A stretch of 38,167 nucleotides of DNA from Flavobacteriaceae bacterium (GTDB lineage: Bacteria > Bacteroidota > Bacteroidia > Flavobacteriales > Flavobacteriaceae): contig PANU01000087.1 in the NCBI GenBank assembly GCA_002707745.1, positions 1 to 38,167 of the forward strand, in the 5' to 3' direction. The first letter of the stretch is position 1; the number at the start of each line of letters is the position of its first letter. A program made the position numbers and the translations under genes. Positions 25,365-34,640 of the stretch are shown here, piece by piece. Below the pieces are notes generated by a model. The model saw only the letters and a program-made list of their open reading frames with translations. It was not told the DNA's origin and did no database searches.

Positions 25365-25426
25365 TAACATTAAGATAACACAAACCTTACTTAATGCTAA
25401 AACAAGCATAACATTTAGGTAACCAG
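25365..25426 (+). promoter_or_regulatory. Six 11-bp-phased TAACATT-like direct repeats (putative extended Pho-box-like array)
   Basis: 25365 TAACATT, 25376 TAACACA, 25387 TTACTTA, 25398 TAAAACA, 25409 TAACATT, 25420 TAACCAG. Confidence 0.65.
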
Positions 25427-25444
25427 CAATGAAGCATTTCAAAG

Positions 25445-25452
25445 TTTCTTTG
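25445..25452 (+). promoter_or_regulatory. Degenerate -7 element of the TonB-dependent receptor gene
   Basis: TTTCTTTG then CACC; 25 bp from the last repeat. Confidence 0.5.
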
Positions 25453-25475
25453 CACCAAATGAATAAACTACTTTG

Positions 25476-28262
25476 ATGAGCAAATTATTTACAGCAGCAA
25501 TGCTATTATTTACTGCCTTAACGTTCGCACAAACTGGGACGATAGAAGGTACATTAACCGACAAAGATGCCAATGGGGAACCCTTGCCGTTTGCCAATGT
25601 TATATTAAAAGGAACCACAAAAGGAACCACTACCGATTTTGACGGCAACTATAGTATAGAAAATGTCCCCGTTGGAAGTTATGTGATAGAATTCAGTTTT
25701 GTTGGGTATGAAACTGTTGAAATTCCAAACGTAACCGTTGAAACGGACAAATTTACACGGATAGATGCAGCATTAGGAGCCAGCGCAGCAGCCCTGGACG
25801 AGGTATTTATTACCGTACAAACCAGCCGTGAACGTGAAACGGCCTTATTATTAGAACAAAAAGAAGCGGTAGCAATTAAAGAGAGTATTGGAGCGGAGCA
25901 AATGGGTAAGCTTGGTGTTTCTGATGCTTCAAGCGCCACCACAAAAATTTCGGGGGTTTCTAAAACAGACGGAAGCGGAGATGTTTTTGTACGTGGATTG
26001 GGAGACCGTTATTTATCGACAACGCTTAATGGCCTGCCCATCCCTTCGGACGATGTGGAGCGCAAGAATATTGGTTTAGAACTTTTTAACACCCGATTGA
26101 TACAGAGCATTGGCGTGAGCAAGACTATGTCACCAAATCTTACTGCAGATCAGGCTTCAGGAACTGTTGATATTACTTCTAAAGAGTTGAGTGGAAGTTC
26201 GGAGCTTTCTGCTAAAGTTGGGGCTTCCGTTAATACCAATGTGTTACAGGACGGTGTTTTTGACAATTTTAAAGTATCTCCTAATAGCGACGATGTTACT
26301 GCGGGAATTTATGTTAAGGACTTTTCAACCAGAAGAGCCATTACCGAGCAAACCTGGGCACCACAAACCGCAAGTTTGCCTGTAAACAATTCTGTTTCCT
26401 TCAGTATAGGAAAAAAATTAGGAGATCGTTTTAAAGTGTTGTTAACGGCCGGACAGAATAGTACCTATGAATATCAAAACGGGGTGTTCCGTCAGTTTCG
26501 TTCCAACTTTATCGATGACTCCATTCCAGATGCGATTACCTGGAAAAAGGAAGTAGCTACTTCGGCATTATTTACGACCAAGTTTAAGGCAGACGATAAT
26601 AATGATCTGAAGTTTACAGCCTTAGTGATCAATAAAATTACCGATCAGGTTTTTGAAGGAGGGCGTGAAGGAACGGCCACTATTTTTGAAGAAACCGATG
26701 AAGGAGAAGCATTTCAGTTTGTTCGCGATCAAAACCTAAAGAAAACCCTGGTTTCCGTAACACAGCTATCTGGAGATCACGATCTATCTGAAAACAACAC
26801 CCTTACATGGGCAGGAGGTTACAACTTTTTAAGTGCCGATGAGCCTAACCGAATTAGGAACGAAGTTAATTTCAATTTCACCGAACCAGGACAAGAAGAC
26901 CTGGTACAGTTAGGACGCACTGGTGGTTTTCAGCAACGTAAGAGTGTTCAAAAAATTACCGATGTAGAATACAATGGTCGTATTGCTGATATGCTTAAGA
27001 TCTATGATGATGAAACTAATAAGTTCAATATAAATGTGGGCGCAGATTACCGTAAAAAAACACGTGAGTTTCGTTCTATTTTCTATGGGGTTGAAGAAAC
27101 AGTTCTTAATGCTGTAAACCCTGAATCCATAGATGCTATAGCCGAAATTTTTACTCAAGAAAATTTCGATAATAATATTTTAAAGCTAAATGAGATAGAT
27201 CCGGATTTTTATGATGGAACGCTACAAAGTGTTTCTGGGTTTGCAAATTTTAGCGGTACGTTAGGCAAGTTAAGTGTAGCTGCTGGACTTCGTTTTCAAA
27301 AAGACGATATAGATGTAGACTTCGATGTGAACAACTTCCCTGGAAGAACCGGACAAGCTACTAAAAACTACCGCAGACTTTACCCATCATTTAATGTGAA
27401 ATACGAAATAAATGAAGAACATAGTGTTCGATTTGCAAACAGTACTACGCGAACTCTTCCAGAATTCAAAGAAATTGCTCCTTTTGAGTATGTTTCTCCA
27501 CAAGCGCAGGTTACACGAGGTAATCCAGATATTGAAGCCTCTACAAATTATAACTATGATTTAAAATGGGAGTTCTTTCCATCAAACGATCAGTTAGTTT
27601 CTTTGACAGGTTTTTATAAAGAAATAGAAGACCCTATCAATAAAGTACAAGATCGTGGAGCAGCTGGAATATTCTCTTACTTTAATTCTGCGGAGAAAGC
27701 TGAAGTATATGGATTAGAAGTTGAAACACGAATTAACCTTATGGCAGGAGACGAGCAACCTAAACTTAGACTTGGGCTAAATGCTGCACGCCTTTGGACA
27801 AGCCAGGATTTGAAAGATGAATTGGATGCAGATGGAAATTTAATACGAACATTTAAATACAACAACAAAACCGAAACAGAGCTCCAGGGCGCTTCAGAAT
27901 GGATCGTAAATACTTCTTTAAATTTTGAAACAAACCAAGAATATCCATTAGACGCAACCGTTGTGGCAAATTATGCAAGCGATAGAATTTTTGCTTTAGG
28001 TTCTCCAGAATTTCAATCCTCTGGAGATATCAACTACAATGAAGCTATTATAGAAAATGGTTTTGTCACCCTGGACGCTATCATAAACAAAGAGCTTAAC
28101 GATAATTGGACACTTGGTGTTCAAGCAAAAAACATATTAAATCCAGAGATAAAAAGAACGCAACTCATTCGCCCTAGTACAACAGGTGTGGAAAGCGAAG
28201 AAACGGTACTTTCTTATACCAAAGGTGTACGACTGGGACTTACTATTAACTATTCATTTTAA
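25476..28262 (+). CDS. TonB-dependent outer membrane receptor with N-terminal carboxypeptidase-regulatory-like domain
   Basis: Signal peptide, GTIEGTLTDKDANGEPLPFANVILKGTTKGTTTDFDGNYSIENVPVGSYVIEFSFVGYE, plug FVRGLGDRYLSTTLNGLPIPSDD, C-terminal TINYSF. Confidence 0.93.
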   Translation: MSKLFTAAMLLFTALTFAQTGTIEGTLTDKDANGEPLPFANVILKGTTKGTTTDFDGNYSIENVPVGSYVIEFSFVGYETVEIPNVTVETDKFTRIDAALGASAAALDEVFITVQTSRERETALLLEQKEAVAIKESIGAEQMGKLGVSDASSATTKISGVSKTDGSGDVFVRGLGDRYLSTTLNGLPIPSDDVERKNIGLELFNTRLIQSIGVSKTMSPNLTADQASGTVDITSKELSGSSELSAKVGASVNTNVLQDGVFDNFKVSPNSDDVTAGIYVKDFSTRRAITEQTWAPQTASLPVNNSVSFSIGKKLGDRFKVLLTAGQNSTYEYQNGVFRQFRSNFIDDSIPDAITWKKEVATSALFTTKFKADDNNDLKFTALVINKITDQVFEGGREGTATIFEETDEGEAFQFVRDQNLKKTLVSVTQLSGDHDLSENNTLTWAGGYNFLSADEPNRIRNEVNFNFTEPGQEDLVQLGRTGGFQQRKSVQKITDVEYNGRIADMLKIYDDETNKFNINVGADYRKKTREFRSIFYGVEETVLNAVNPESIDAIAEIFTQENFDNNILKLNEIDPDFYDGTLQSVSGFANFSGTLGKLSVAAGLRFQKDDIDVDFDVNNFPGRTGQATKNYRRLYPSFNVKYEINEEHSVRFANSTTRTLPEFKEIAPFEYVSPQAQVTRGNPDIEASTNYNYDLKWEFFPSNDQLVSLTGFYKEIEDPINKVQDRGAAGIFSYFNSAEKAEVYGLEVETRINLMAGDEQPKLRLGLNAARLWTSQDLKDELDADGNLIRTFKYNNKTETELQGASEWIVNTSLNFETNQEYPLDATVVANYASDRIFALGSPEFQSSGDINYNEAIIENGFVTLDAIINKELNDNWTLGVQAKNILNPEIKRTQLIRPSTTGVESEETVLSYTKGVRLGLTINYSF

Positions 28263-28292
28263 CATTAATTATTTATTAAACTTTAAACAACT

Positions 28293-30239
28293 ATGAAAAA
28301 TCTAAGAAATTTTACTAGAATTTTTGCGATACTAAGTATCGTACTAGCTGCTAGCTGTAGCAGTGATGACGACTTCGTTCAAAATGATGACGACACCGTG
28401 TCTGAAGAATTAGACCTTACAGGAGATATTACAGCAGACCGTATCCTTGACGCTACACAACAGTACACGTTGTCTGGACCTGTTTTAATTAAAGACGGAG
28501 CTAAATTGACCATTCCTGCTGGAACATTAATTATTGCTGAAGCGGGACAAGAAACCTACATTGCTGTAGAGAAAGGGGGTGAGATAGATATTCAAGGTAC
28601 TGCCAGCCTACCAGTAATTATGCGTTCTACCGCTGGGTCTCCGGGAGATTGGGGTGGTTTATTACTTTGTGGGAATGCACCAACTACTGAAGGTGTTAAT
28701 GTAATTGCTGAAGTAGGTGGATTAATCTACGGAGGTAATGAGCCAACAGATAGCTCAGGAAACATAGATTACCTTATCATCGAAGGTGCCGGATCACAAA
28801 TTAATCCAGACTCACAATATAATGGTCTTACGTTGTATGCGGTAGGATCAGGAACTTCTATCGACAACGTAGCTGTACTGAACGGTGCAGATGATGGTGT
28901 TGAATTTTTTGGCGGAACAGTAAGTGTTACCAACTTTTATTCTGAAAACAATGAAGACGATTCTGTAGATTGGACTGAAGGATGGAACGGAACTTTAACT
29001 AACTCTTATGTATTACATACACAAGAAGGTTTCTCTACTGCTGTTGAAGCTGACGGAGACAATGCGAACCCAAAACTTGTTAACTTTACCGCAAACTCTA
29101 CTGTAGGTGGAACTGCATTGCAGTTTAAGAAAGAATCTGGTGCGACCATTACAGGTCTTGCTTTAATTGGTTACGATATTTCATTGGATTTTAGAGATAA
29201 CGGTGCTTTTAGTAACGTGCAAATTGAAGGTGAAGATGCAAACCCCAATAATGCCTATGTAGCGGAGCCAACAGTAGACATCTCTACTTTTAGTTGGGTA
29301 AACTCTAACAACACTGGTGCCGAGGTAGTAATTTTAGAAGGCACTATAGCTGGAACTCAGACATTAGACCCTGGGACAAGTTATTTACTGGATGGTGCAC
29401 TTATTGTACCTAACGGAGCTAAATTGATAATTCCAGCCGGAACTAAAATTGCTGCTCGTCCAGGAGGACAGTCGGTTTATATAGCTGCACAGATTGGTGG
29501 GCAAATTGAAGTAAATGGTACTGCAGAGAATCCAGTTGTGATGTCGTCTGTTAGCGGACAACCTGGTGAGTGGGGTGGATTATTATTATGTGGTGATGCT
29601 CCAACAACCGAAGGGACAAATGTGATAGCTGAAGTTGGTGGCCTTGTTTACGGAGGTTCTAATGATGCTTCAGATTCTGGACAAATTAATTACTTAGTAA
29701 TTGTTGGTGCTGGAGCTCAAATTAACCCAGACTCTCAATTTAACGGCTTAACGCTTTACGCAGTAGGAACAGGTACAGAAATTAACAACGTAGCTGCCAT
29801 TAATGGAGCAGACGATGGTGTTGAATTTTTTGGTGGAACTGTAAGCATGACTAACTTCTATGCGCTTAACAACGAAGATGATTCTGTAGACTGGACTGAA
29901 GGATGGAATGGTACATTAACTAATGCATATGTACAAAACGATAACGCTGGTTTCTCTACTGCTGTCGAAGCTGATGGAGATAACTTTAATCCAAGTCTTA
30001 TAAACTTTACAGCTATATCCACTGTTGGTGGGACTGCCTTACAGTTTAAAAAAGAGTCTGGCGCTACCTTTACAAATGCTTTCTTAAGCGGTTATGATAC
30101 CAGAGTAGACTTTAGAGACAACGGAGCTCCTAGCAACGTAGTTGTAGACGGAACTCCATTAACAGGACCTGATGATGATGTGTTTAACGGGACTGCCGTA
30201 GACATTTCTATGTGGACTTGGATTAATGCAAGATTATAA
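28293..30239 (+). CDS. Secreted lipoprotein with two tandem ~300-aa predicted beta-solenoid-like repeats
   Basis: Lipobox SIVLAASCSSDDD; two copies of EWGGLLLCGxAPTTEGxNVIAEVGGL...NGADDGVEFFGGTVSxTNFY...NNEDDSVDWTEGWNGTLTN...GGTALQFKKESGAT. Confidence 0.85.
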   Translation: MKNLRNFTRIFAILSIVLAASCSSDDDFVQNDDDTVSEELDLTGDITADRILDATQQYTLSGPVLIKDGAKLTIPAGTLIIAEAGQETYIAVEKGGEIDIQGTASLPVIMRSTAGSPGDWGGLLLCGNAPTTEGVNVIAEVGGLIYGGNEPTDSSGNIDYLIIEGAGSQINPDSQYNGLTLYAVGSGTSIDNVAVLNGADDGVEFFGGTVSVTNFYSENNEDDSVDWTEGWNGTLTNSYVLHTQEGFSTAVEADGDNANPKLVNFTANSTVGGTALQFKKESGATITGLALIGYDISLDFRDNGAFSNVQIEGEDANPNNAYVAEPTVDISTFSWVNSNNTGAEVVILEGTIAGTQTLDPGTSYLLDGALIVPNGAKLIIPAGTKIAARPGGQSVYIAAQIGGQIEVNGTAENPVVMSSVSGQPGEWGGLLLCGDAPTTEGTNVIAEVGGLVYGGSNDASDSGQINYLVIVGAGAQINPDSQFNGLTLYAVGTGTEINNVAAINGADDGVEFFGGTVSMTNFYALNNEDDSVDWTEGWNGTLTNAYVQNDNAGFSTAVEADGDNFNPSLINFTAISTVGGTALQFKKESGATFTNAFLSGYDTRVDFRDNGAPSNVVVDGTPLTGPDDDVFNGTAVDISMWTWINARL

Positions 30240-30260
30240 TCCTCATTTTATAATTAGCTA

Positions 30261-30295
30261 AAAAGGGCGATCAAACTATGTTTGATCGCCCTTTT
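30261..30295. terminator. Bidirectional intrinsic terminator
   Basis: AAAAGGGCGATCAAA-CTATG-TTTGATCGCCCTTTT. Confidence 0.88.
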
Positions 30296-30316
30296 ACTAT
30301 TTTAAATAGTATTCAA

Positions 30317-30697
30317 TTATTTATAAGATACCACACGAGTATCTTTTGCCTCCCACGTATTTACTTTAGCAATTTTAGAATTTGCATAGGTTACTTCTTT
30401 CATGGTATCTCCCTGGTAAAACTTCCAGGTCCCTACTTTGTTACCGTTGTTATACTGGGCAACCGCAGTTTTTTTTCCGTTGGCATCATAACTTACCCAT
30501 TCGCCTTGTAATTTATTTTCTTGGGTATAAAAACCTGTTTGCGCTATTGCGCCATTTTCGTGATATAAGGTGGCTTCAATAAGCCCGTCTACCAGTACAT
30601 ACTTGTCTTTAACGTCTTTGCTACATATTTTGCTACATTGTGCTACCGCTACATTAGCTAATAAACACACTACTAAAAGGGATATAATATTTTTCAT
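30317..30697 (-). CDS. Secreted MORN-like repeat protein, unknown function
   Basis: 126 aa with signal peptide; YHENGAIAQTGFYTQENKLQGEWVSYDANGKKTAVAQYNNGNKVGTWKFY pattern. Confidence 0.8.
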   Translation of the reverse strand: MKNIISLLVVCLLANVAVAQCSKICSKDVKDKYVLVDGLIEATLYHENGAIAQTGFYTQENKLQGEWVSYDANGKKTAVAQYNNGNKVGTWKFYQGDTMKEVTYANSKIAKVNTWEAKDTRVVSYK

Positions 30698-30725
30698 AAC
30701 TACAGTTTTTTAACGTTCTATATAC

Positions 30726-30733
30726 CAAAAATA
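30726..30733 (-). promoter_or_regulatory. -7 element of the MORN-like protein gene
   Basis: Minus strand TATTTTTG. Confidence 0.5.
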
Positions 30734-30814
30734 CAACATAGTTAACAATTTTGAAAGTATTTCATAACGTTATGGTAACATTAGGCGCATAACTTACTGT
30801 TTTATAGGCTGTTA

Positions 30815-30847
30815 TCCAATGTTAAGTTTTCAAAACTTAACATTGGA
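30815..30847. repeat. Perfect 33-nt palindrome containing TAACATT on both strands
   Basis: TCCAATGTTAAGTTTT-C-AAAACTTAACATTGGA. Confidence 0.95.
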
Positions 30848-30860
30848 GGCTTCAATTACT

Positions 30861-30915
30861 TAATAATAGCTTAATATTTAGGTTACATTCAAGCGACATA
30901 GATGTACTTATTTTG
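30861..30915 (+). promoter_or_regulatory. Pho-box-like promoter (three 11-bp-phased repeats plus -7 element) not preceding a recognizable gene
   Basis: TAATAAT 30861, TAATATT 30872, TTACATT 30883; -7 TTATTTTG 30908-30915. Confidence 0.5.
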
Positions 30916-30920
30916 TAGGG

Positions 30921-31011
30921 TCGTAAGACATGCACATCTGTAAATCGTTTAAGTTTTTGTCAACTAGATTTTAATGTGTACTGGCTACCTTTTTTAGGGT
31001 AGCCTTTTTTA
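30921..31011 (+). ncRNA. Candidate small RNA with intrinsic terminator
   Basis: Starts just downstream of the -7 at 30908-30915 and ends at GGCTACC-N8-GGTAGCC-TTTTTT (30983-31010); no convincing ORF. Confidence 0.45.
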
Positions 31012-31012
31012 T
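30983..31012 (+). terminator. Intrinsic terminator of the candidate sRNA
   Basis: GGCTACCTTTTTTAGGGTAGCCTTTTTT. Confidence 0.85.
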
Positions 31013-31043
31013 TTATACGAACACAAAATAATAGTTATAAATT

Positions 31044-31087
31044 TAATCATTACGTAACATTCAGTTAACATTGGTTTTAGTTCTTTG
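31044..31087 (+). promoter_or_regulatory. Pho-box-like promoter of the porin gene
   Basis: TAATCAT 31044 (weak), TAACATT 31055, TAACATT 31066; -7 GTTCTTTG 31080-31087 then CAGC. Confidence 0.6.
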
Positions 31088-31115
31088 CAGCGACAAAAAC
31101 TTAAAGACGATTGTA

Positions 31116-32318
31116 ATGAGAGTATCTTTCCTTCTTGTAGGGTTAACCTGCATGATTTTAAATATTGCTAATGCACAAGAAATTAGCGATGCTAAATTTG
31201 GTAAAGGTCTACTTAACTTTGTGGCAAAAGACAGTTCCTTCAGTGTAAATTTTGCACCTCGTATTCAGGGACGCTTTATGTCTGAGTGGAACCACAATGG
31301 TGACAACTACGGTAGCCCCGAGCACAACTTCTTAATTCGCCGAGCCCGACTTAAATTTGGTGGTTTTGCGTATTCCCCGAACCTAAAATATAAAATTGAA
31401 TTGGGACTCTCCAACCGTGATATTTCGGGAGGAAACCAATTTAACCGTAATACCTCCCGCATTATCTTAGACGCAGTGGTGATGTGGAATTTCTACGAAA
31501 ATTTCGAATTATGGGCAGGACAAACCAAGCTTCCCGGCAATGTGGAGCGTGTGGTTTCTTCAGCCAATTTACAGCTTATAGACCGCTCTTTATTAAACAG
31601 TAATTTTAATATAGATCGGGATGTGGGTATACAACTACGTCACGAGACTAACCTGGGAGGTAACTTCTGGACTCGCGAAAAAGTTGCTGTTTCCCAAGGG
31701 GAAGGGCGCAACGTAACGGAAGGCAACGAAGGTGGTTTGCAGTATACGGGTCGCTTGGAGTTTTTACCTTTCGGAAAATTTGCTTCAAAAGGAGATTATA
31801 CACAAGTTGATTTAAAAAGAGAAGCATCTCCTAAATTAATGATCGGGATTACCTACGACTACAATAACGATGCTGTTAAAACAAGAAGCAACCTGGGCTC
31901 CTATATGTTTTTGGAAGATGGTAGCTTGTATGAAACAGACATTACTACATTCTTTGCCGATGCCATGTTTAAGTACAAAGGTTTTGCCTTTATGGGCGAA
32001 TATGCTGCCAGGGATGCAGAAAACCCTGTTGCGGTAGAAGCCGACGGAAGTGCTACGGGCGATATTGTTCGTGTTGGAAATGCCTTTAATGCACAGCTCA
32101 GTTATTTATTCAAAAATAATTACGAAATTACAAGCCGTTATACCACTACCGATTTTAAATCGGTAACCAGTAGAGCACCGCAAGACCAATATACCTTAGG
32201 GGTGTCAAAATATATTGTAGGACATAAATTAAAAGTTCAGGGAGACGTGAGTTATACTACCCTAGATGGTAGCGAAGACAATATCATGGTAAGAACTGGA
32301 TTTGAATTACATTTTTAA
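31116..32318 (+). CDS. Porin, phosphate-selective porin O/P-like
   Basis: Start trimmed to MRVSFLLVGLTCMILNIANAQ (signal peptide, downstream of the predicted TSS); FAPRIQGRFMSEWNHNGDNYGSPEHNFLIRRARLKFGGFAYSPNLKYKIELG; C-terminal TGFELHF. Confidence 0.82.
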   Translation: MRVSFLLVGLTCMILNIANAQEISDAKFGKGLLNFVAKDSSFSVNFAPRIQGRFMSEWNHNGDNYGSPEHNFLIRRARLKFGGFAYSPNLKYKIELGLSNRDISGGNQFNRNTSRIILDAVVMWNFYENFELWAGQTKLPGNVERVVSSANLQLIDRSLLNSNFNIDRDVGIQLRHETNLGGNFWTREKVAVSQGEGRNVTEGNEGGLQYTGRLEFLPFGKFASKGDYTQVDLKREASPKLMIGITYDYNNDAVKTRSNLGSYMFLEDGSLYETDITTFFADAMFKYKGFAFMGEYAARDAENPVAVEADGSATGDIVRVGNAFNAQLSYLFKNNYEITSRYTTTDFKSVTSRAPQDQYTLGVSKYIVGHKLKVQGDVSYTTLDGSEDNIMVRTGFELHF

Positions 32319-32327
32319 TAAAAGAGA

Positions 32328-32371
32328 TAACAATTTGGTAACAAATGGGCTCATTTAATTTGTGACATTTG
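32328..32371 (+). promoter_or_regulatory. Pho-box-like promoter of the phosphate transporter gene
   Basis: TAACAAT 32328, TAACAAA 32339 (11-bp phase); -7 GACATTTG 32364-32371, ATG 4 nt later. Confidence 0.6.
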
Positions 32372-32375
32372 CGCC

Positions 32376-34640
32376 ATGGAAGCACTATTTAATATGGAAA
32401 ATATTTATTTATTCATGCTAATTGCATTAGTTGTTTTAGCCGTGATAGATATCGTCGTTGGAGTAAGTAACGATGCTATAAACTTTTTAAACTCTGCTAT
32501 TGGTTCCAAAGCAATTTCTATGCGAACCATTATGATCGTGGCTAGTTTGGGTATTTTTATTGGCGCTGTCTTTTCCAGTGGCCTTATGGAAGTAGCCCGA
32601 AAGGGGATATTTGTCCCCGGACAATTCTATTTCGATGAGATCATGGTTATTTTTATGGCTGTAATGATCACAGATATCTTACTGCTGGATTTCTTTAATA
32701 CACTGGGTTTACCAACTTCTACAACAGTTTCTATCGTTTTCAACTTGTTAGGGGCTGCGGTTGTAATGTCCTGTATTAAAATAAGTAAGTCGGATACCGA
32801 AACACTTGCTAACCTTGCAGAATATATTAATACAGCAAAAGCTTTTGAAATTATCATGGGTATCTTATTATCTGTACTTATCGCTTTTACGATAGGAGCT
32901 TTGGTACAGTGGATTTCCAGATTAGTTTTCACCTTTCACTTTAAAGATAAAATGAAACACTTTGGAGCTGTGTTTGGCGGAATCGCATTAGCAGCTATTG
33001 GGTATTTTATTTTTATGAAAGGCCTAAAGGGAACCCCGTATTACGATGATTTTAAAGATATTATAGAAGGGAATGAGCTTGTAATATTGGGAAGTAGCTT
33101 TATATTCTTTACCTTATTTTCTTATGCTTTTCAGAAAATATTTAAGAAAAGTATCTTAATAATTGTAATTGCTGTTGGAACGTTTGGATTGGCTCTTGCT
33201 TTTTCAGGAAACGATTTGGTAAACTTTATCGGGGTGCCTATGGCAGCATACCATTCGTACGAATTTTGGGCAGCTTCGGGAGTAGATGCAAGTTTATTCT
33301 CTATGGAAATTTTAGAAAAGAAAGTACCTGCAGAACCGCTATTGTTATTTATTGCCGGTGCCATCATGGTAATTACACTTTGGTTCTCTAAAAAAGCCAA
33401 AACCGTTGCAGAAACCGAAATAAGTTTATCCCGTCAGGGAGAAACACACGAAAAGTTTGAACCCAATATGCTTTCCAGACTCATCGTAAGAGGAACCACT
33501 GGTCTGTCTTTTGGATTGGGCAAAGTTATTCCGGCAGCTGCTCAGGAAAAAATTAATAAAAGTTTTCAAAAACCCGACACGAAAGCCCTTACCAAGGATC
33601 AAAGTATAAATGCTCCTGCTTTCGATATGATTAGAGCCTCTGTAAACCTTATGGTTGCGGGTGTACTAATTTCAATTGCAACCACTATGAAACTCCCACT
33701 GTCCACTACCTACGTTACTTTTATGGTGGCCATGGGTACTTCCCTTGCAGACAGAGCCTGGGGAAGAGAAAGTGCTGTGTATAGAGTAGCCGGGGTTCTT
33801 AATGTAATTGGCGGATGGTTCTTTACAGCCATTGGTGCTTTTATTGCGTGTGGAGTTGTAGTGTTCCTTATACAATGGAACAAGGAGATTATGACCCCAA
33901 TACTCCTATTACTTACCGTTTTATTATTGGTAAGAAACTACCTTTCTCATAAAAAGAAAAGTGAAATATCCTTAGATCCAAGTAAACTAAAAAAGAGCGA
34001 AAGTAGTACGGTACAAGGTATTATTTCAGAAAGTGCCGACAACATCTCAAACGTCATTTCACGTACTAATAAAATTTATTCTATTGTGCTGAAAGGTCTG
34101 GCCAAAGAAGATTCTAAAGGACTTAAAAAAGGAAGAAAGCAAGTTGATAAGTTAGATGCAGAAATTGAAGAGCTACGGGACAATATTTTTTATCTCATTA
34201 AAAATCTGGATGAAACCAGTGTGCGTGGAAGCAATTTTTACATCATTATATTGGGGCACTTAACTGATATGGCACAGTCCTTGGATTTTATTGCCAAAAA
34301 GAGTTATAAACATATCAACAACAATCATAAAAAACTGAAATTCAGTCAAATTAAAGACCTTCAGGAAATAGACCAGACCCTTACTTCGGTTTTGGAAGAA
34401 ATAGAAGAAGTTTTTAATAGCCGAAAGTTTGAGCGTGTTAGTTTTGTACTTGCAAGAAAGAGTGAGGTGGAAGCAATGCTTTCTGATAAAATTCAGAAAC
34501 AAATTGACCGCACCCGAAGCGAAGAATCCAGTCCTAAAAATACAACCTTGTATTTTAATATTTTGTTAGAAACAAAAGACCTGGCTTCAGGGATTATGAA
34601 CCTGATGGAAGAATACTATTCAAGCTATAAACGCGAGTAA
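32376..34640 (+). CDS. Inorganic phosphate transporter (PiT/PHO4 family) with C-terminal PhoU-like helical domain
   Basis: VVGVSNDAINFLNSAIGSKAISMRT and TMKLPLSTTYVTFMVAMGTSLADRAWGRESAVYRVAG signature duplication; C-terminal ~200 aa charged helical region. Confidence 0.9.
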   Translation: MEALFNMENIYLFMLIALVVLAVIDIVVGVSNDAINFLNSAIGSKAISMRTIMIVASLGIFIGAVFSSGLMEVARKGIFVPGQFYFDEIMVIFMAVMITDILLLDFFNTLGLPTSTTVSIVFNLLGAAVVMSCIKISKSDTETLANLAEYINTAKAFEIIMGILLSVLIAFTIGALVQWISRLVFTFHFKDKMKHFGAVFGGIALAAIGYFIFMKGLKGTPYYDDFKDIIEGNELVILGSSFIFFTLFSYAFQKIFKKSILIIVIAVGTFGLALAFSGNDLVNFIGVPMAAYHSYEFWAASGVDASLFSMEILEKKVPAEPLLLFIAGAIMVITLWFSKKAKTVAETEISLSRQGETHEKFEPNMLSRLIVRGTTGLSFGLGKVIPAAAQEKINKSFQKPDTKALTKDQSINAPAFDMIRASVNLMVAGVLISIATTMKLPLSTTYVTFMVAMGTSLADRAWGRESAVYRVAGVLNVIGGWFFTAIGAFIACGVVVFLIQWNKEIMTPILLLLTVLLLVRNYLSHKKKSEISLDPSKLKKSESSTVQGIISESADNISNVISRTNKIYSIVLKGLAKEDSKGLKKGRKQVDKLDAEIEELRDNIFYLIKNLDETSVRGSNFYIIILGHLTDMAQSLDFIAKKSYKHINNNHKKLKFSQIKDLQEIDQTLTSVLEEIEEVFNSRKFERVSFVLARKSEVEAMLSDKIQKQIDRTRSEESSPKNTTLYFNILLETKDLASGIMNLMEEYYSSYKRE

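Follow-up and report, generated by a model that had tools for sequence, protein, structure and literature searches.

Why should a TonB-dependent receptor, a candidate small RNA (sRNA), a porin and a PiT-family phosphate transporter, all lying within a few kilobases of a Flavobacteriaceae genome, be preceded by the same direct repeats, and what would the sRNA do among them? We addressed this question in a stretch of 38,167 nt (contig C87 of an assembly of 2.76 Mb that is 82% complete; hereafter the window), in which the genes run in the order dxs, HD protein, TonB receptor, lipoprotein, a secreted MORN_2-like protein on the reverse strand (the MORN gene), sRNA, Porin_O_P porin and PiT transporter (domains by Pfam). 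With losses and replacements, this order is conserved in most of 20 relatives examined. Our reading, to which we assign a probability of about 0.78, is that this is a Pho-type regulon locus in which a PhoB-like activator would act on a lattice of repeats, while the sRNA would pair with the 5′ end of the porin mRNA and repress the porin, closing an incoherent loop.

All repeats, −7 elements and start-to-start distances described in the original prediction, which had been made from the sequence alone, are present in the window, and the exact −7 consensus TANNTTTG does precede several other window genes, to which we add the MORN gene. The repeats and their geometry thus hold up, but the fixed 25/36-bp spacing proposed for them does not, as the porin promoter has its main repeats at offsets of 14 and 25 bp from the −7 element and a weaker repeat at 36. 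The common rule is instead a lattice: all offsets (14, 25, 36 and 47) are congruent to 3 modulo 11, the arrangement to be expected if tandem binding takes place on a single face of the helix. Repeats of 7 bp separated by 4-bp spacers are the known geometry of the Pho box (PMC4415409). Two boxes had been missed, namely a second one at the receptor and one in the interval between the MORN gene and the sRNA (Table 1). With the −7 element placed at −12 to −5 relative to the transcription start (PMC9723704), the PiT transcript would begin at the A of its ATG (32364–32376), which predicts a leaderless PiT mRNA for this genus. Genome-wide, the pattern TAACATTNNGKTAACATT with at most three mismatches is not over-represented (104 matches versus 168 for the reversed control). 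Six of these matches fall within one 7-kb stretch of the window, where ~0.3 would be expected, each of them on the plus strand and in non-coding sequence. This stretch also contains two of the genome's four best matches.

Across genomes, the same lattice recurs. In the sRNA promoters of 101 other genomes, agreement with TAACATT is on average highest at offsets 25, 36 and 47 (4.7, 5.1 and 4.4 of 7; background ~2.4); in 117 porin promoters the maxima are at 14, 25 and 36 (6.2, 6.0 and 5.1 of 7). Most relatives carry arrays of 4–8 tandem 11-bp units upstream of the sRNA. In PiT promoters of most genera the second repeat begins exactly 25 bp before the −7 element, and the lattice is also kept in ~20 PiT promoters of other Flavobacteriaceae. 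A two-unit score of at least 12 of 14 was reached by 86% of porins and 57% of PiT promoters as compared to 6% of 80 upstream regions of unrelated loci, taken away from the locus genes as the control; the mean score was 12.7 for the porin and 10.9 for the sRNA. An unbiased exact-motif scan of 60 relatives bore out the enrichment near phosphate genes that the original prediction requires, with 65 sites as compared to 15 for the reversed pattern. Of these sites 30 were read; all lie outside genes, and most adjoin MORN, PiT, porin, receptor or PhoB-like genes.

Genomes with a Pst system have pstS immediately behind the porin. In three of them there is no gap and the porin carries the box (as in G011), and where a gap exists, six of seven have a box scoring at least 11 of 14 (control rate 20%). 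In an order-level relative (G319), an exact box lies between the gene of a PhoB-like regulator and its neighbour. The conserved lattice, the enrichment of the motif at phosphate genes and the boxes at pstS or the porin–pstS pair support the proposal of activator-dependent promoters with Pho-box geometry, and comparative sequence makes a Pho-type operator in front of phosphate-uptake genes well supported.

Two observations on box-like sequences stand apart. A perfect palindrome, CCAATGTTAAGTTTTCAAAACTTAACATTGG, composed of two opposed box-like halves, lies in the interval that separates the MORN box from the sRNA promoter (~30817–30847); it is present in G003 too, other relatives having a single half only. 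Exact box-like sites (TAACATTTTTTTAACATT or similar) also precede genes with QTG-rich, curlin-like repeats (L002, at G000:C22:29712, and L281 in G016), which may reflect chance or a different regulator.

The candidate sRNA upstream of the porin proved well founded, with conservation, a covarying stem and a terminator in its favour. At E ≤ 0.01, a covariance model built from 13 sequences gave a match in 147 of the 301 family genomes (~120 of these at or above ~46 bits), nearly always as a single copy. Outside the family, a class-level search with the model returned background scores only, with nothing above 42 bits, and within it the sampled genomes of one large genus (g145) gave no convincing match. 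Searching named genomes for the exact 18-base core recovered at least 120 loci in many genera, those listed among the matches including Algibacter, Maribacter, Tenacibaculum, Lacinutrix, Winogradskyella, Arenibacter and Polaribacter, and each locus has the 5′ hairpin, the central stem and the terminator. The near-invariant core, UUUUUGUC, sits in the central hairpin. Arms of the central stem pair better with their own partners than with permuted ones (−8.85 versus −6.03 kcal/mol; z −11.8 over 73 non-redundant sequences), and the window sRNA folds 4.4 standard deviations better than its dinucleotide shuffles (minimum free energy, z −4.4). We rejected a small peptide as the conserved product: the genus has a 14-codon ATG frame, relatives have no ATG, and the core is constant by nucleotide. 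An Rfam scan of the window and the sRNA region assigned no family (best hit MicA, 24.4 bits, E 0.12, threshold 41). Judged from this comparative record, the sRNA is a real element, predicted to form a separate intergenic transcript with a promoter and terminator of its own, and we propose it to be a new RNA family that would work like MicF and MicA without being a member of those families.

Its likely target lies next door. In the window, UUUAAGUUUUUGUC of the sRNA is perfectly complementary over 14 nt to GACAAAAACUUAAA, the predicted beginning of the porin mRNA. The porin was found within 2.5 kb of the sRNA in 125 of 133 loci, with a median distance of 147 nt from core to ATG; 106 of these 125 porin leaders contain GACAAAAAC, most of the remainder carry one-base variants of it, and most sRNA–leader pairs are complementary over 12 to 18 nt. 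Counted from the TTTG of the −7 element, 104 of 105 target sites start 4 or 5 nt further on, which places them at the predicted first transcribed base; they lie 15–26 nt (mostly 17–23) ahead of the porin ATG. Predicted duplex energies average −25.6 kcal/mol, versus −11.0 for shuffled leaders. The paired flanks change together, being UAUUAG/CUAAUA in most genera, UUUAAG/CUUAAA in the genus of the window and UAAAG/CUUUA in G016, with compensatory changes from T-A to A-T at flank position 1 and from A-T to T-A at position 3. An independent set comprised 39 porins of genomes in which no sRNA had been clearly detected there beforehand. The sRNA itself or a weaker version was then recognized for nine of them, and eight of these nine carry the site, as compared to 2 of the 30 porins without sRNA (Fisher p = 6e-6, kinship of species ignored). 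Given that its conserved core complements the predicted very start of the mRNA of the adjacent porin, the sRNA very probably controls this porin.

From these features we derive the following model. An OmpR-family activator, most likely the PhoB homologue encoded with PhoR at G000:C86:2475–3158, would bind the tandem 11-bp TAACATT-type repeats, set on a helical lattice 14, 25, 36 or 47 bp upstream of poor −7 elements, and recruit polymerase there. It would thereby turn on the receptor–lipoprotein pair, the sRNA, the porin and PiT, or elsewhere pstS instead of PiT. The sequence UUUGUC, predicted to be exposed in the central-hairpin loop of the sRNA in most genera, would make the first contact with the GACAAA at the 5′ terminus of the porin mRNA, from where pairing would zip into a duplex of 12–16 bp over +1 to ~+14. 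As the porin leader measures only ~24 nt, this duplex would leave ~10 nt in front of the AUG and should keep ribosomes from loading, which predicts repression of the porin; that ribosome entry is what the duplex blocks seems to us fairly probable. Within the resulting incoherent feed-forward loop, porin output would peak at moderate and drop at severe phosphate starvation, favouring the TonB receptor. This idea is attractive because the sRNA boxes match the consensus less well than the porin box.

The sign of regulation might also be the opposite. A duplex spanning exactly +1 to ~+14, with ~10 nt left before the AUG, might shield the mRNA from 5′-end-dependent decay, so that the sRNA would activate the porin in a coherent loop and both would be raised under phosphate starvation, as their sharing the same kind of box would suggest. 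Repression is, however, the usual outcome among described sRNAs with pairing sites near the start region, GibS of Bacteroides included (PMC7366714), and a 14-bp duplex in so short a leader should hinder ribosome entry. We consider activation the less likely outcome, though the main alternative, and retain repression.

Which protein reads the boxes is suggested by their context. The best PhoB candidate of the genome (C86:2475–3158), followed by a gene for a PhoR-like kinase, scored 216 bits against the PhoB equivalog TIGR02154, more than against any other model; this is under the curated cut-off of 296 bits, so that its name rests on context. In the relative G006, phoB is found ~7 kb from PiT. 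In Flavobacterium johnsoniae the same kinds of receptor, lipoprotein and porin adjoin phoBR, and phosphate depletion induces the receptor and the lipoprotein by ~8 and ~10 log2 units, respectively (PMC8115612). Neither PhoU nor PstS was found in the window's own genome, whose assembly lacks some 18% of its expected content. Together with the association of the boxes with phosphate genes, this context makes PhoB the most likely binding protein, as an inference.

Several observations weigh against the reading as a whole. Four of five full-length phoX genes have no upstream box, and outside G319 the phoB promoters of relatives show at most a doubtful box, autoregulation not being evident; regulon membership thus misses some expected Pho genes. 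F. johnsoniae OprP is reported not to be induced by phosphate depletion (PMC8115612). On the RNA side, the named loci were gathered by exact core match, which makes the constancy of the core there a product of selection (the covariance-model search is free of this), and the compensatory changes span only a few clades. Because the species are related, z-scores and the Fisher p overstate the number of independent events. Finally, one genome (G313, locus L420) has a porin with the target site and no sRNA in the stretch read, the sRNA being possibly lost or placed elsewhere.

The phoX genes and the uninduced OprP would be more easily understood if another OmpR-family regulator, responding to osmotic or envelope stress in the manner of classical porin regulation, bound the boxes and phosphate genes were only a part of its regulon; indeed, 11-bp direct repeats are common to OmpR/PhoB-type regulators. 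Yet, the boxes track PiT, pstS and the phosphate-type porin across genera, the PhoB-like gene of G319 shares an intergenic box, and in F. johnsoniae receptor and lipoprotein genes of these types are induced by phosphate depletion (PMC8115612). We hold such a regulator to be unlikely and keep to PhoB.

Somewhat more doubtful still is a cis-acting porin leader. As the sRNA and the porin are adjacent and co-directional in nearly all genomes, read-through from the sRNA promoter might place the core and the porin leader in one molecule, where their pairing would control the terminator or translation with no sRNA acting in trans. However, a terminator hairpin with its T-run and a separate boxed promoter intervene, the first base of the site coincides with the +1 predicted for the porin's own transcript, and G098 and G121 keep the target site with the sRNA ~3 kb from the porin.

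We give just as little credence to the porin leader being a sponge or bystander, its 5′ end titrating an sRNA whose main targets are other mRNAs. Candidates for such targets do exist: the pstS leader of L341 (G080) carries CAAAAACTAATA, complementary to the G080 sRNA, the PiT leader gives a modest predicted duplex with the sRNA (−15.3), and each genome has further 12-mer matches. In an exact-match search of 26 genomes, though, these 12-mers were no commoner than in the reversed control and no other gene recurred, and only the porin site is held at one position across the family. Where Pst replaces PiT, pstS may nonetheless be a further target of the sRNA. A perfect complement of the sRNA core, AGTCGACAAAAACT, also occurs in L346 (G097), ~170 nt upstream of a pstS-like gene and after the preceding gene; it is possibly a second target or a rearranged copy. 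As for AT-rich chance resemblance, with boxes and pairing both non-functional, the count of 104 versus 168 in a single genome is what one would expect of it, but the clustering, the cross-genome lattice, the exact-match enrichment, the co-occurrence and the covariation already refute it.

Table 1. Elements and genes of the locus, with their positions in the window, strand and the basis on which each was placed.
Feature	Position	Strand	Basis
Upstream Pho-type box of the TonB receptor, TAACATT AAGA TAACACA	25365–25382	+	Genome-wide pattern match; recurs at the same place in receptor promoters of relatives
Promoter-proximal Pho-type box of the TonB receptor, repeats at 25409/25420 (36 and 25 from −7 element)	25409–25426	+	Sequence, genome-wide pattern, relatives
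Receptor promoter −7 element, TTTCTTTG	25445–25452	+	Sequence
TonB-dependent receptor (CarbopepD_reg, Plug, beta-barrel)	25476–28262	+	Pfam; gene type of F. johnsoniae Fjoh_0545
Lipoprotein, ~648 aa, two similar halves	28293–30239	+	Place and type of low-phosphate lipoprotein FII (Fjoh_0546)
Secreted MORN_2-like protein, 126 aa	30317–30697	−	Divergent from the sRNA; recurs in this locus among relatives
Strong box between MORN gene and sRNA, TAACGTT ATGG TAACATT	30765–30782	+	Genome-wide pattern match
sRNA triple 11-bp repeat, TAATAAT, TAATATT, TTACATT, at 30861/30872/30883 (47, 36 and 25 from −7 element)	30861–30889	+	Same offsets are peaks in 101 other genomes
sRNA promoter −7 element, TTATTTTG; predicted +1 at 30920	30908–30915	+	Sequence, relatives
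sRNA, ~94 nt (5′ hairpin, central covarying stem around conserved core, intrinsic terminator)	30920–31013	+	−7 rule for start, terminator for end
sRNA seed, UUUAAGUUUUUGUC, complementary to porin mRNA 5′ end	30948–30961	+	Sequence comparison
Porin box, repeats at 31044/31055/31066 (36, 25 and 14 from −7 element)	31044–31072	+	Best motif match in genome
Porin promoter −7 element, GTTCTTTG; predicted +1 at 31092	31080–31087	+	−12 to −5 placement (PMC9723704)
sRNA target site, GACAAAAACUUAAA, at predicted positions +1 to +14 in porin mRNA	31092–31105	+	Sequence comparison
Porin, Porin_O_P family, 400 aa counted from ATG	31116–32318	+	Pfam
PiT box, TAACAAT TTGG TAACAAA, repeats at 32328/32339 (36 and 25 from −7 element)	32328–32345	+	Sequence, genome-wide pattern, relatives
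PiT promoter −7 element, GACATTTG	32364–32371	+	Sequence, relatives
PiT-family phosphate transporter (PHO4), 754 aa	32376–34640	+	Pfam

Two gene starts differ from the open reading frame list that accompanied the original prediction: the TTG starts given for the porin (31071) and the receptor (25473) are better read as ATG at 31116 and 25476, respectively. The lipoprotein has no match in Pfam or NCBIfam and is of the same type as the F. johnsoniae low-phosphate lipoproteins FI and FII. No neighbour of the exact box is more constant than the gene of the secreted MORN_2-like protein, and this small protein is likely an undescribed member of the phosphate regulon.

If this reading is true, it provides a phosphate-control operator, in scannable form, for the Flavobacteriaceae, a major marine bacterial group, and adds a well-supported sRNA–target pair to a phylum with very few known. 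The porin would then be controlled by an sRNA in a phylum without the usual Shine-Dalgarno-based initiation and, as reported for Bacteroides, with no obvious Hfq or ProQ (PMC7366714), and an mRNA with a short leader, paired at its very 5′ end, would be a good place to study sRNA action outside the usual Shine-Dalgarno logic. The porin case would also bear on the bacterial switch between uptake through passive porins and active, TonB-driven uptake as phosphate becomes exhausted. We found no description of the box or the sRNA in the open-access literature, which is weak evidence of novelty as only open-access texts were covered; the F. johnsoniae study contains neither the term Pho box nor a small RNA (PMC8115612).

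How does the locus compare with known systems? Its operator would be a Pho box with a new unit. Like the E. coli PhoB and B. subtilis PhoP boxes, it consists of at least two 7-bp repeats in 11-bp units before poor core promoters of phosphate genes. It differs in its unit, TAACATT instead of CTGTCAT, in its Bacteroidetes-type −7 element, in arrays of up to eight units and in its targets, i.e. TonB receptor, porin, PiT, MORN protein and sRNA. As a lead only, the unit TTAACA resembles the B. subtilis PhoP half site. With the low-phosphate regulon of F. johnsoniae, in the phoBR cluster Fjoh_0541–0549, the locus shares a TonB receptor, lipoprotein FII and an OprP-type porin (PMC8115612); here, in contrast, the cluster contains PiT and an sRNA, with phoBR located at another place in the genome.

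Other Bacteroidetes sRNAs acting on mRNAs are GibS of B. thetaiotaomicron (PMC7366714) and Rfp18 of Flavobacterium psychrophilum (PMC9723704); they have other targets, metabolic genes and metalloproteases, respectively. The closer analogy is to the enterobacterial MicF, MicA and MicC, likewise small intergenic RNAs with their own promoter and terminator and with complementarity to the leader of an outer-membrane porin mRNA. There is no relation in sequence or structure, and unlike them, the sRNA described here adjoins its predicted target, would pair with the exact 5′ end of the mRNA and has a phosphate-type promoter. We think it reasonably probable that a family-wide, hitherto undescribed phosphate-starvation sRNA captures the first 12–16 nt of a phosphate-porin mRNA, that the porin promoter and the sRNA evolved jointly, with the pairing site setting even the transcription start of the target, and that the control of porins by sRNA was invented here independently.

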